From: Amycolatopsis alkalitolerans
GTDB lineage: Bacteria; Actinomycetota; Actinomycetes; Mycobacteriales; Pseudonocardiaceae
Reading direction: 5' to 3'
Assembly (NCBI RefSeq): GCF_006152065.1
Contig: NZ_VDFW01000019.1
Span: 1 to 64,000, forward strand
DNA: 64,000 nt
This document shows positions 46,138 through 50,458 of the stretch, one piece after another. Positions within the stretch are counted from its first letter, which is position 1. Every line of letters starts with the position of its first letter. The position numbers and the translations under genes were made by a program. A model generated the notes under the pieces. It did not search any database and was not told where the DNA came from. It saw nothing but the letters and a program-made list of their open reading frames with translations.

Positions 46138-46845
46138 TTACGTTGAGGTCTGGACCATCAGGTCGTCCAGACCAGGTGAGCGCCGGACCCGGCGGTCCGC
46201 GCCGACCGCGAACACGAGGCAGCCCGGCTGCCCGGCCGCCCAGCCGGCGCCGGCCGCGCCCATCGCGAACGCCGCCGTGGACACCGCGTCGGCCGTGGTC
46301 AGGTCGGCGGCGACGACGGTCAGGCTCGTCAGCTCGCGGACGGGTTCGCCGGTGCGGCCGTCGTAGATGTGCTCACCGCGTTCGTAGCAGCCGGAGGTCG
46401 CGACCGCCTGATCCCGCACGGCGAGCACGGCGCACACCTGGTCTGCCCGCTCGGGATGGCGGATGCCGACCGACCACACCCGCCCCGCCGCGGCGACGTC
46501 ACCGCCCGCGTTGAGGCAGAACGACCGGACGCCCTGGGCCCGCAGCAGATCCGCGGCACGCTGCACGGCCCAGCCCTTCACGATCCCGCTCGGATCGAAC
46601 GGCCTGCCCGGCAGCCGCGCGCGGAACGCACCGCCGCTGCGCAACTCGTATTCGGCGCACAGCCGCTCGATCTCGGCCATCTCGGGACTGCGCAGGCCGA
46701 GCCGGACCTCGCTGTCGGGCCGGAAGGGGCTGAACCGGCGGTCTACCTCGGCGAGCCAGTCGAACACGACCTGGCCGCCGTCGGGCACGTGCTCGCGGAT
46801 GTCGAGCGAGATCGGCATGCCCATCACGTGCTCGACCCGGCGCAT
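46138..46845 (-). CDS. apbE: FAD:protein FMN transferase (ApbE)
   Basis: The protein has 235 residues, shorter than most ApbE (about 300-350). Family motifs: MGMPISLDI, FDPSGIVKGWAVQRAADLL, FCLNAGGDVAAAG, VATSGCYERGEHIYDGRTGEP and the metal-site end TTADAVSTAAFAMG. It attaches FMN to a Thr of a partner protein, here clearly the overlapping FMN-binding protein (ATGA overlap). No lipobox, so a cytosolic or secreted site of action is unclear. Confidence 0.9.
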   Translation of the reverse strand: MRRVEHVMGMPISLDIREHVPDGGQVVFDWLAEVDRRFSPFRPDSEVRLGLRSPEMAEIERLCAEYELRSGGAFRARLPGRPFDPSGIVKGWAVQRAADLLRAQGVRSFCLNAGGDVAAAGRVWSVGIRHPERADQVCAVLAVRDQAVATSGCYERGEHIYDGRTGEPVRELTSLTVVAADLTTADAVSTAAFAMGAAGAGWAAGQPGCLVFAVGADRRVRRSPGLDDLMVQTST

Positions 46846-47318
46846 CAGTGACCCTTGGCGTCGATCGCCGCCTGCAGCGACTGGGCGTAGGACTCGCTCG
46901 TGATGGTCGCGCCGGACACGGTGTCGATACGCGAGCTCTGGGCCTGCAGTGCCTCCTCGCGCAGGGTCGGCGCCGCCTCGCCGGCGATGCGCTGGCTGTG
47001 CCGGTCGCTCGGCTCGGTGATCAGCCGGACGTCGGTGATCCGGTTGCCGGTGAAGGTGACCTGCACCTGGTACGGCCCGTAGTCGCTGTCCACAGTGGAC
47101 CCGTTGACGACCTCGGTCGCGGCTCGGGCCGGGGGCGCCGTGCTGGGTTGCCCGCTGGTGGACGGGCTGGTGGACGGGCTGGTCTGCGTCGGGGGCGCCG
47201 CGGGGAGTGTCGCGACCGGACCGGGCGCCGCCGCCGTGGCGGAGGTTTCGGGGTGATACCGCAGCAACGGCAGCAACCCGGCGATCGCGAACATCAAGAC
47301 GATGAAGAACTTGCGCAC
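46845..47318 (-). CDS. FMN-binding domain protein, predicted ApbE substrate
   Basis: The protein has 157 residues. An N-terminal membrane anchor (FFIVLMFAIAGLLPLL) and a Thr/Pro/Ser-rich stalk (about 25-65) lead to the FMN_bind domain with the flavinylation motif DTVSGATITS; T138 is the likely FMN-linked residue. It probably shuttles electrons outside the membrane with the ferric-reductase-like protein encoded upstream. GTG 47318 follows AGGAGCAGG, which directly abuts the MITE-like element. Confidence 0.9.
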   Translation of the reverse strand: MRKFFIVLMFAIAGLLPLLRYHPETSATAAAPGPVATLPAAPPTQTSPSTSPSTSGQPSTAPPARAATEVVNGSTVDSDYGPYQVQVTFTGNRITDVRLITEPSDRHSQRIAGEAAPTLREEALQAQSSRIDTVSGATITSESYAQSLQAAIDAKGH

Positions 47319-47328
47319 GGCCCTGCTC

Positions 47329-47560
47329 CTAGTGTCGTGTGATCCTGTCCGGTTTACGTTGCCGTGTTTGCCCGTAGGGTCGTTGGGTTTGTCCGCTGCG
47401 GTGTCGAGTTGGCTGGTCCGGTCGCTGACTGTGCCCTAGGCGACAGCGGCCGGCCAACTCGATAACGCCCCGAGCCAACTCAGCGACGCCAAGGGCCAAC
47501 TCAGTACCCTGGCGAACAAACACACCCGCGCGCAAAGACAACAAGATCACGAAACACTAG
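47329..47560. mobile_element. 232-bp MITE-like element with imperfect terminal inverted repeats
   Basis: The ends CTAGTGTCGTGTGATCCTGT (47329) and, inverted, CTAGTGTTTCGTGATCTTGT (from 47560) agree at 16 of 20 bases. No transposase frame lies inside. The interior holds inverted CGAGTTGGC/GCCAACTCG arms and phased direct repeats. The right end provides the TAG stop codon of the oxidoreductase gene and the left end abuts the ribosome site of the FMN_bind gene. A target duplication cannot be separated from the palindromic CTAG ends. Confidence 0.6.
47453..47502. repeat. three GCCAACTC repeats at exact 21-bp spacing
   Basis: GCCAACTC occurs at 47453, 47474 and 47495, and inverted (GAGTTGGC) at 47406. 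The spacing equals two helical turns, so the copies face the same side of DNA. Confidence 0.7.
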
Positions 47561-48858
47561 GCGGCGAAGGCGAAACGTTCGGTGTGGCACTGCGAATCCG
47601 GCAGGCCGAGCTCGGCCAGGGTGCCGCGGACGGCGTCGGTCATCCCCGGCGGGCCGCAGACGTACACGTCACGGCGGCGCAGGTCCGGAACCATCGACTT
47701 GAGGTGCCGCGGGCCCATCATCGGCCCGTAGCGGCCGACGGCGTTCGAGGGACCGGTGACGACGTAGAAGCGGGCGCGGCACCAGCGCGCGATCCGGGTC
47801 ATCTCTTCGGTCAGGACCGGGTCACGGCCGCGGTAGATCACCGCGATGTCGTCCCCGGCGAGCGCGAACTCCTCCAGCAGCGCGCGGATCGGTGTCACGC
47901 CGACGCCTCCGGCGATCAGCAGCACCCGCTCGCGCGTGCGCCGCTCCCCCGTGAACGCGCCGTAAGGACCTTCGGCCAGTACCCGGACGCCGGGCCGGAT
48001 CCCTTGCAGCCAAGCGCTTCCGTCGCCGAGCGCCTTCACGGTGATCCGCAGCGAATACCCGTCGGGCATCGCCGACAGGGAGTAGGGATGCGCCTCCCAC
48101 CACCGGTTCGAAAAGCGCCAGAGGAAGAACTGCCCGGCCCGGGCAGGCAGGCGGTGCAGATCCCGCCCGCCGATTTCGACCGTCACCACATCCGGGCTTT
48201 CCCGGTGCACCGCGACCACCCGCAACCGGTGCCGGAAGTTTCGCAGCAGCGGCAGGGCGACGCGGCTCAGCCCGACCGCGGCGAGCGCGAGCCCGTAGAG
48301 CGCCCACCAGTAGAACCGCCCGATGGGTGAACCGACGAAATCCTGGCCGACCGAGACCTGGTGCAGGAAACCGAGGATCACGGCCAAGTACGCGCCCAGA
48401 TGCAGCAGGTGCCAGCCTTCGTACCGCAGCCGGCGCCGCGCGCGGCGGGCCGAGCTGACCCCGACCACGACCAGCAGGGCCGTCGCGATGGTGGCCTTCA
48501 GCACGTCCTCGGTGTGGAACACGAGCGTGCCCACCTCCGCCAGCACCGGGCTGCCGTCCTGATGCGCGTAGCCGAGGGTGATGAACACGACGTGCGCGAT
48601 GACGAGCCAGAGCACCCAGAACCCGCTCCAGCGATGCCACGCGGTGAGCCGGTCCATGCCCAGCCGCGATTCGAGGAACGGCACCCGCGCGACGAGCACG
48701 AGCTGCACCACGAGGGCCAGCGCGCCGTACAGCCCGGTCAGACGGCCCAGTGCGGTCAGCAGATCGCCGCTGGTCAAGCCGTGCCCGAGCACGAACAGGT
48801 CCGTCGCCCACACCGCGTTCAGTGCCACGAGCGCGAACAGCCATCTCTCCGCTTTCAC
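47557..48858 (-). CDS. ferric-reductase-like transmembrane flavo-oxidoreductase
   Basis: The protein has 433 residues from GTG 48858. Six membrane helices with haem-ligand type His residues (AWHRWSGFWVLWLVIAHVVF, WHLLHLGAYLAVILGFLHQ) precede the FAD/NAD domain: HPYSLSAMPD, LLIAGGVGVTPIRALLEEF and YVCGPPGMTDAV. It should pass electrons from NAD(P)H across the membrane, probably to the FMN-binding protein encoded downstream. The stop codon lies in the MITE-like element, so the native C-terminus may differ by a few residues. Confidence 0.9.
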   Translation of the reverse strand: MKAERWLFALVALNAVWATDLFVLGHGLTSGDLLTALGRLTGLYGALALVVQLVLVARVPFLESRLGMDRLTAWHRWSGFWVLWLVIAHVVFITLGYAHQDGSPVLAEVGTLVFHTEDVLKATIATALLVVVGVSSARRARRRLRYEGWHLLHLGAYLAVILGFLHQVSVGQDFVGSPIGRFYWWALYGLALAAVGLSRVALPLLRNFRHRLRVVAVHRESPDVVTVEIGGRDLHRLPARAGQFFLWRFSNRWWEAHPYSLSAMPDGYSLRITVKALGDGSAWLQGIRPGVRVLAEGPYGAFTGERRTRERVLLIAGGVGVTPIRALLEEFALAGDDIAVIYRGRDPVLTEEMTRIARWCRARFYVVTGPSNAVGRYGPMMGPRHLKSMVPDLRRRDVYVCGPPGMTDAVRGTLAELGLPDSQCHTERFAFAA

Positions 48859-49852: not shown

Positions 49853-50458
49853 ATGTCCGTCGTGTCCCGTGGTTTCACCGGCCGCCGCAGCTCCGGCCCG
49901 CCCGGGCGGCTGCCGCCAGGCCAGTACGACGCCGGCGCCGCGTTCCCGGTGCTGTCCGCGGGCCCGGTGCCGCGCCGGCACCTCGACGCCTGGGATTTCA
50001 CCGTGACAGGTGACATCGACGATCCGCTGAGCTGGACCTGGGCGCGGTTCCAGCAGCTGCCGCACCAGGACGTCACGGTCGACATCCATTGCGTCACCAG
50101 CTGGTCGAAGTTCGACACCCGCTGGTCCGGCGTCAGCGTCGACACACTGCTGGGCGAAGTCGAGACGGCCGCCGAGTACGTCGTGGCCTTCTGCGACGGC
50201 GGGTACACCACGAACCTGCCGCTGGAAGACGTTCTCGACGGGAAGGCGTGGATCGTCGACTCCTACGACGGGCAGCCACTGGCGCCCGAACACGGTGGCC
50301 CCGCCCGGCTGCTCGTGCCGCATCTGTACTTCTGGAAGTCGGCGAAGTGGGTGCGCGGCCTGAGGCTCAGCCTCGCCGACGAGCCGGGGTTCTGGGAGAC
50401 CTTCGGCTACCACAACTACGGCGACCCGTGGAGGAACCAGCGCTACGCCGGCGACTGA
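49853..50458 (+). CDS. sulfite oxidase-like molybdopterin oxidoreductase
   Basis: The protein has 201 residues and consists of the Moco domain alone. The Mo-ligand cysteine is C80 in DIHCVTSWSKFDTRWSGVSV. HGGPARLLVPHLYFWKSAKWV is the other family landmark. No Tat signal, so it is likely cytosolic. It is followed 11 bases on by a zinc-ribbon (DUF6510-like) gene, a frequent neighbour. The GGAGGAGGGG ribosome site is strong. Electron partner and substrate unknown; the flavo-oxidoreductase nearby is a candidate (inference). Confidence 0.9.
   Translation: MSVVSRGFTGRRSSGPPGRLPPGQYDAGAAFPVLSAGPVPRRHLDAWDFTVTGDIDDPLSWTWARFQQLPHQDVTVDIHCVTSWSKFDTRWSGVSVDTLLGEVETAAEYVVAFCDGGYTTNLPLEDVLDGKAWIVDSYDGQPLAPEHGGPARLLVPHLYFWKSAKWVRGLRLSLADEPGFWETFGYHNYGDPWRNQRYAGD

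Follow-up and report, generated by a model that had tools for sequence, protein, structure and literature searches.

The segment at positions 47329–47560 of the window, by which we mean the whole 64-kb stretch of DNA analysed here from a draft genome of 6.78 Mb in 84 contigs, is with high confidence, in element identity and mode of insertion taken together, one copy of a 232-bp non-autonomous MITE of the IS630/Tc1/mariner type. It separates a reductase gene from its FMN-binding and apbE partners, just as the earlier note had described from the sequence: the segment measures 232 bp, its inverted 20-bp ends agree in 16 of 20 bases, and the repeat search gives terminal arms of 21 bp (81%). The MITE family is new, and its gene-end-like cargo is its novel part; no published description of the MITE or of the 21-bp arrays was recognised from titles and abstract starts, which leaves their absence from print unproven. 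Its stop-codon habit and its gene-end-like body raise the element above a routine MITE. The features of the locus are as follows.

47329–47560, no strand: MITE insertion, 232 bp including CTAG at each end; at least 40 places in the own genome, absent here in 8 relatives.
47329–47348, plus strand: left terminal repeat, CTAG followed by TGTCGTGTGATCCTGT; one mismatch in 20 bases to the left end of L112, an IS630 element of 1183 bp.
47541–47560, minus strand: right terminal repeat, CTAG followed by TGTTTCGTGATCTTGT in minus-strand reading (repeat and end comparison).
47329–47332, no strand: target copy 1, CTAG, whose first base is common to the GGAG ribosome-binding site (47326–47329, minus strand) of the FMN-binding gene (sequence; single CTAG in relative G015).
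47557–47560, no strand: target copy 2, CTAG, containing the TAG stop of the reductase gene (47557–47559, minus strand; sequence and empty-site comparison).
47366–47500, no strand: body, two 51-nt inverted arms (47366–47416 and 47450–47500, 73% complementary) of 21-bp GWGTTKGC-N13 units (repeat search).
47557–48846, minus strand: reductase gene, MsrQ-like, with Ferric_reduct and NAD_binding_1 domains and a weak FAD_binding_8 match; start codon uncertain (domain search).
46845–47318, minus strand: FMN-binding-domain gene, GTG start at 47316–47318 (ORF and domain search).
46138–46845, minus strand: apbE (FAD:protein FMN transferase family), overlapping the FMN-binding gene by one base (ORF and domain search).

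The segment folds better than all 200 of its shuffled versions (z = -5.85, plus strand), and matches to the 21-bp unit cover 47364–47523. According to the ORF list it holds no transposase gene, and the 73-aa ORF that spans it is taken as chance, because one other copy (L013) is 2 bp shorter internally. Divergent to the operon, the window carries a molybdopterin-binding oxidoreductase gene (Oxidored_molyb; 49853–50458, plus strand).

Our search of the own genome with the segment yielded 49 rows, which merged into at least 40 distinct places once split and opposite-strand rows were joined; this is a lower bound, since scoring covered 40 of the 61 first-look candidates. Besides the copy at 47329–47560 there are 17 full-length copies with identities of 96–99%, followed by older copies at 80–85% and then by fragments. 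A genome search for the ends, the check suggested by the earlier note, found 48 occurrences of CTAGTGTNNNGTGATC against 25 for the reversed control, and 45 exact occurrences of the extended end CTAGTGTNNNGTGATCNTGT against none. From 46 loci examined we scored 23 complete copies, with a search pattern that started with CTAG and allowed at most two substitutions, so that more decayed copies lie outside this count. Nineteen of them measure 232 bp, the others 231, 230 and (n = 2) 211 bp, and CTAG bounds all 23, in two cases with a single-base change (GTAG in L012, CTAA in L033). The best copy pairs are 99.6% identical, which argues for a recent spread of the MITE, and five copies, whose mean identity to the rest is 80–87%, represent older subfamilies. 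With the segment as query in 60 relatives, long matches (70–84%) were confined to G008, where seven aligned copies are 81–84% identical to the copy at 47329–47560; five other relatives gave short, weak matches to the body.

Copies of the element lie at the start or end of contigs C2, C4, C6, C7, C10, C30, C34 and C42 of the own genome, where it appears to break the assembly. One copy (L038, G000:C10:1-205) shows a tandem amplification of the 21-bp unit GCCAACTCAGCGACGCCAAGG, and its end is without CTAG. Another (L024, G000:C8:149844-150020) is devoid of both ends and abuts a gene near the contig end that we take, from its translation by eye, to encode cytochrome oxidase subunit I; it represents either a rearrangement or a misassembly. 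With respect to plasmid carriage, the segment was without a match in the plasmid collection.

The comparison with close relatives, which the earlier note had also suggested, documents the empty site. Eight of 18 same-genus relatives searched have an alignable reductase–FMN junction, and the insert is absent in all eight. One example is G015, which has a single intact CTAG at the exact place of insertion (CTCCTAGGCGGCG, compared with CTCCTAG-element-CTAGGCGGCG in the own genome). A second operon-internal copy (L011) splits a CTAGGAG that is unbroken in G008, and there the insert is present in none of the eight relatives that are readable at the junction in correctly oriented loci. Its flanks are two co-directional genes, presumably for an FAD-dependent oxidase-like protein and a thiamine-diphosphate enzyme-like protein, as judged by eye from their translations. 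At both sites the CTAGGAG combines a stop codon with a ribosome-binding site that overlaps it. The contrary outcome named in the earlier note, a segment syntenic in all relatives and without other copies, is contradicted by the at least 40 places and by the eight relatives without the segment.

The target also clarifies a further statement of that note, according to which the right end supplies the stop codon of the reductase gene. The TAG does lie in the right-hand CTAG, but it is part of the target and is present in G015 without the insert; since it belongs to the CTAG that is regenerated on insertion, the reductase gene is independent of the element for its stop. The target here was CTAGGAG, in which the TAG stop of the reductase gene and the GGAG ribosome-binding site of the FMN-binding gene overlap; both genes therefore stay intact, with a spacing that has risen from 10 to 238 nt. 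We propose that a transposase of the type found in the 1183-bp elements of G078 (see below) would recognise ends of about 20 bp, and that the MITE was probably inserted by cut-and-paste into the TA of CTAG. In the 23 complete copies TA sits inside the duplicated CTAG, and because nearly every target is CTAG, a duplication of TA looks the same as one of CTAG. An IS630-associated transposon is said, in the title of a 1991 paper by Tenzen and Ohtsubo, to transpose preferentially to TA in CTAG. The IS630-family element ISY100 has TA as its almost exclusive insertion site and duplicates this dinucleotide, according to the covered part of its description (PMC2170065). CTAG is a palindrome, and one CTAG flanks the inserted element on either side, so that any gene terminating at the target retains its TAG. 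The case illustrates how a transposon can enter tight operons and overlapping convergent genes with neither gene broken if its target is a palindrome containing TAG on each strand.

The origin of the ends could be narrowed down by an exact search for the extended end in 390 genomes of the family, in which it was present in eight genomes from six of 46 genera. Two elements of 1183 bp in G078 (L112 and L120), which belongs to another genus of the family, carry it on both sides with one mismatch at one end each. Their transposases match the IS630 family model NF033545 (E 1.5e-73 and 1.9e-75; 247.9 and 254.1 bits, cut-off 100), and DDE_3 of Pfam was also matched. The left and right ends of both elements correspond to the left and right ends of the MITE, including the asymmetry of TTTACG on the left and TGTCTTT on the right. 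These shared ends point to IS630 as the likely parent type. Taken together, the many copies, their CTAG boundaries, the sites found empty in relatives and the existence of an autonomous relative whose ends match strongly support the MITE-like insertion postulated in the earlier note. Short elements with the same CTAG-TGT ends and different bodies occur in other genera (G103, G211, G248 and G205; 61–169 bp in the seven scored), with 45 end matches in G103.

The search for a parent transposase, likewise suggested by the earlier note, led to elements of the likely parent type in G078 and to none in the own assembly. An end search with three mismatches found no end pair at transposon spacing in the own assembly, and the L112 transposase as query gave two weak matches in the own genome and none in G008. 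Seven IS630-family matches are present in the own genome, one of them above the cut-off and with two in-frame stops; at six of the seven loci examined, a lone poor end-like site was found at two and an end pair at none. The single match above the cut-off (G000:C49:15506-16354) shows two in-frame TAG codons and no matching end pair. With no own IS630 gene bearing an end pair, the MITE family may be stranded here, or its parent may lie in a gap of the assembly and so be missing, since the 84-contig draft breaks at several copies. PF13546, which we take to be IS701-type and had suspected as parent for its target, was rejected: its five own-genome matches include one locus with a lone end-like site (3 mismatches) and none with a pair.

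A transposase of another family that targets CTAG might also have moved the MITE, for instance that of TnRErm46, whose ISRe46 is IS481-like. The own assembly is without an intact IS630 element carrying these ends, and TnRErm46 of Rhodococcus equi has a CTAG target that gives TAG stops and an inverted repeat beginning with TGT, as stated in the covered part of its description (PMC6794481). However, the outer 20 bp of L112 and L120 are almost identical to the MITE ends and share their inner left/right asymmetry, whereas the printed repeat of TnRErm46 has only the first bases in common with them, which makes a mover outside the IS630 type very improbable.

Our analysis of the insertion sites showed an association with stop codons in two genomes. 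In the own genome 11 of the 23 complete copies coincide exactly with a predicted gene's TAG stop, compared with 41 of 189 scored CTAG sites in a background of 800 kb (Fisher p = 0.0098); with sites inside genes excluded, the comparison is 11/22 against 41/147 (p = 0.047). A smaller first background had 6 of 38 CTAG sites on stops, one of them the target of the copy at 47329–47560. In G008, six of nine copies are located on stops against 11 of 53 CTAG sites in 400 kb (p = 0.0097), or against 11 of 43 with sites inside genes excluded (p = 0.045). Pooling the two genomes gives 17/32 copies versus 52/242 CTAG sites (p = 0.0003; p = 0.003 with sites inside genes excluded). Elements with these ends in other genomes were kept out of the pool; two of nine are on stops, which is about the background rate and does not support a stop bias there. 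Six of the 23 own copies have an unresolved neighbour and one is called inside a weak gene. The scoring of G008 started from 13 loci with nine elements scored, among which the mis-registered left end of L116 was counted as intergenic.

The tetranucleotide itself is scarce: 195 CTAG sites were seen in 800 kb of the own genome, about 12-fold fewer than the 2261 expected from base composition and 2.5-fold fewer than the Markov estimate of 489. This rarity and the circumstance that about a fifth of the scored sites (41/189) are stops make for a simple and testable rule. Much of the stop pattern is explained by the scarcity of CTAG and by selection against insertions that break genes, and a moderate extra preference for stops is left over in the two genomes, subject to the simple gene caller, a custom codon-position script instead of a standard annotator. 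Its 610 genes in 800 kb are thought to be a low count, and some 'intergenic' CTAG sites may thus be genic. The convergent case is illustrated by L069 and L111 in G008 and L126 in G103, where one CTAG is predicted as the stop of both convergent genes and each gene has its own stop after the insertion (one side of L111 now reads CTAA); such double stops account for none of the 53 CTAG sites of the G008 background.

The body of the element has relatives outside the MITE. Within the 64-kb window the pair of 21-bp units (GWGTTKGC-N13, at most two mismatches) has six matches, all of them inside the element, against 0.30 expected. Without mismatch it is present in 27 of the 110 genomes searched, the own genome included, with counts of 586 in G008, 379 in G009, 275 in G012, 245 in G006, 162 in the own genome (much of it from MITE bodies), 49 in G013, 40 in G001, 31 in G027, 11 in G010 and at most seven in the others. 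The reversed control gave 0–5 per genome and none in the nine richest. Arrays exist without the MITE, since G009, G012, G006, G013 and G001 contain unit pairs and no exact MITE end; the own genome showed just two arrays outside the MITE in the 800 kb examined. The simplest interpretation would have a 21-bp array captured by an IS630-type MITE, or such a MITE built around the array.

The free arrays are mostly located just 3' of stop codons between convergent genes, as for 12 of 16 in G009. In the named genomes 19 of 34 scorable arrays lie between convergent genes, against 33/174 for the neighbour pairs of these loci (p = 2e-5). This background itself contains the array-bearing gaps, so that the enrichment is, if anything, underestimated. 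For 400 kb of G008 the ratio is 3/6 against 21/147 (p = 0.05), with at least three of the six arrays identical to arrays in the named-genome set. That set was drawn from at least 80 loci among the matches listed, from which 45 Pseudonocardiaceae loci were chosen for scoring; 35 loci were left out, including L179, L196 and L234 of Amycolatopsis and the matches in other phyla, and ten edge arrays and two MITE arrays were removed before the 19/34 count. Six other-phylum loci among the matches listed (L182, L192, L206, L211, L217 and L229) have several matches each, so the three-unit 21-bp pattern is not unique to Pseudonocardiaceae.

Free arrays are often inverted blocks, with examples in G009, G008, G012 and G006 and in the named loci L168, L178 and L197, and some Pseudonocardiaceae genomes carry hundreds of unit pairs, others not a single one. 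The seven and six three-unit matches in L192 (a Cytophagaceae MAG) and L229 (a Verrucomicrobiaceae MAG), respectively, could be 21-bp repeats of unrelated origin. The period of seven codons, with its heptad-like reading, suggested a coding origin, which was rejected because intergenic units point either way and one copy has a 2-bp deletion. An early impression of replichore polarity in the G009 arrays was also rejected once both strands were compared.

The insertion lengthened the intercistronic gap between the reductase and FMN-binding genes from 10 to 238 nt. The reductase gene keeps its TAG, and the FMN-binding gene keeps its GGAG seven bases before the GTG start. The transcribed strand is predicted to fold into a long hairpin (-107.7 kcal/mol); in the predicted folds most of the ribosome-binding site is paired whether or not the insert is there, and the adjacent stop codon changes from open to paired. 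An occlusion of the ribosome-binding site by the terminal stem was not upheld, given this similar pairing. A changed read-through of the operon, considered in the earlier note, is plausible. The most likely effect, with chances close to even, would be a loss of translational coupling, with expression of apbE and the FMN-binding gene falling somewhat behind that of the reductase gene, a drop that is presumed because of the distance and the large mRNA hairpin. The insertion may also be neutral, with intact genes and downstream expression as before or from an own promoter; the preserved stop codon and ribosome-binding site and the similar pairing of the latter speak for this alternative, the 238-nt gap with its stable hairpin against it, and we place its probability a little short of an even chance. 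MITEs of other bacteria do carry promoters. The suggestion of the earlier note that the element supplies one for the FMN-binding and apbE genes is nevertheless disfavoured: no sigma-70-like site was detected in 46800–48000, a weak test with a scan ill-suited to actinomycetes, and seven of the 23 copies are located between convergent genes, where a promoter would serve no gene. We regard this explanation as highly unlikely. Rfam structural RNAs had no match in the same interval at E ≤1.

Another conceivable role of the body is that of a portable gene-end module, a bidirectional terminator or insulator, which would cut the operon transcript between the reductase and FMN-binding/apbE genes. Its units are those of the free arrays with their preference for convergent gaps (19/34 against 33/174; 12/16 in G009; 3/6 in G008), and the element contains a long hairpin. 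However, the link of the arrays to gene ends is positional and not functional, scans that suit actinomycetes poorly found no intrinsic (U-tract) terminator in 46800–48000, and the MITE is not confined to convergent gaps, with seven of the 23 copies between convergent and eight between co-directional genes. This role of the body is accordingly unlikely, and the comprehensive scenario of a mobile gene-end module, which settles on TAG stops, carries the hairpin array of convergent gaps and installs a transcription boundary behind the stops, remains rather a speculative one. Under such a scenario new transcription boundaries would be created inside operons such as reductase/FMN-binding/apbE, and if the 21-bp gene-end arrays are functional, the MITE would spread that function to new genes.

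The host operon by itself is ordinary. It resembles the MsrQ-like flavinylation clusters, which are broadly conserved in Actinobacteria according to the covered part of the source (PMC8238504), in combining a PF01794 protein with NAD-binding domain, an FMN-binding-domain gene and apbE; the insertion is the sole unusual feature seen in comparison with these clusters. Among mobile elements, MITEPsy1 of Pseudomonas syringae is a short MITE as well, with a duplicated 4-nt target of CTAG or YTAA, but it measures 100 bp, is listed as 'IS5?' in the table, probably derives from ISPsy2 and has other ends; the covered text parts contain no stop-codon bias (PMC3189936). TnRErm46 shares the CTAG target and provides a precedent for stop-sparing CTAG insertion, yet that element is a resistance transposon, encodes its own transposase (ISRe46), differs in its end sequences and is not a MITE, as far as the covered part of the source goes (PMC6794481). 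The closest likeness is to IS630/Tc1/mariner elements and their MITEs (IS630, ISY100), with which the element has in common the ends of an IS630-transposase element, the TA-in-CTAG target and a short, non-coding, multicopy nature. It differs from them as a new family that is often placed on TAG stops and whose body is an array of 21-bp units instead of a recognisable internal deletion of the parent type.
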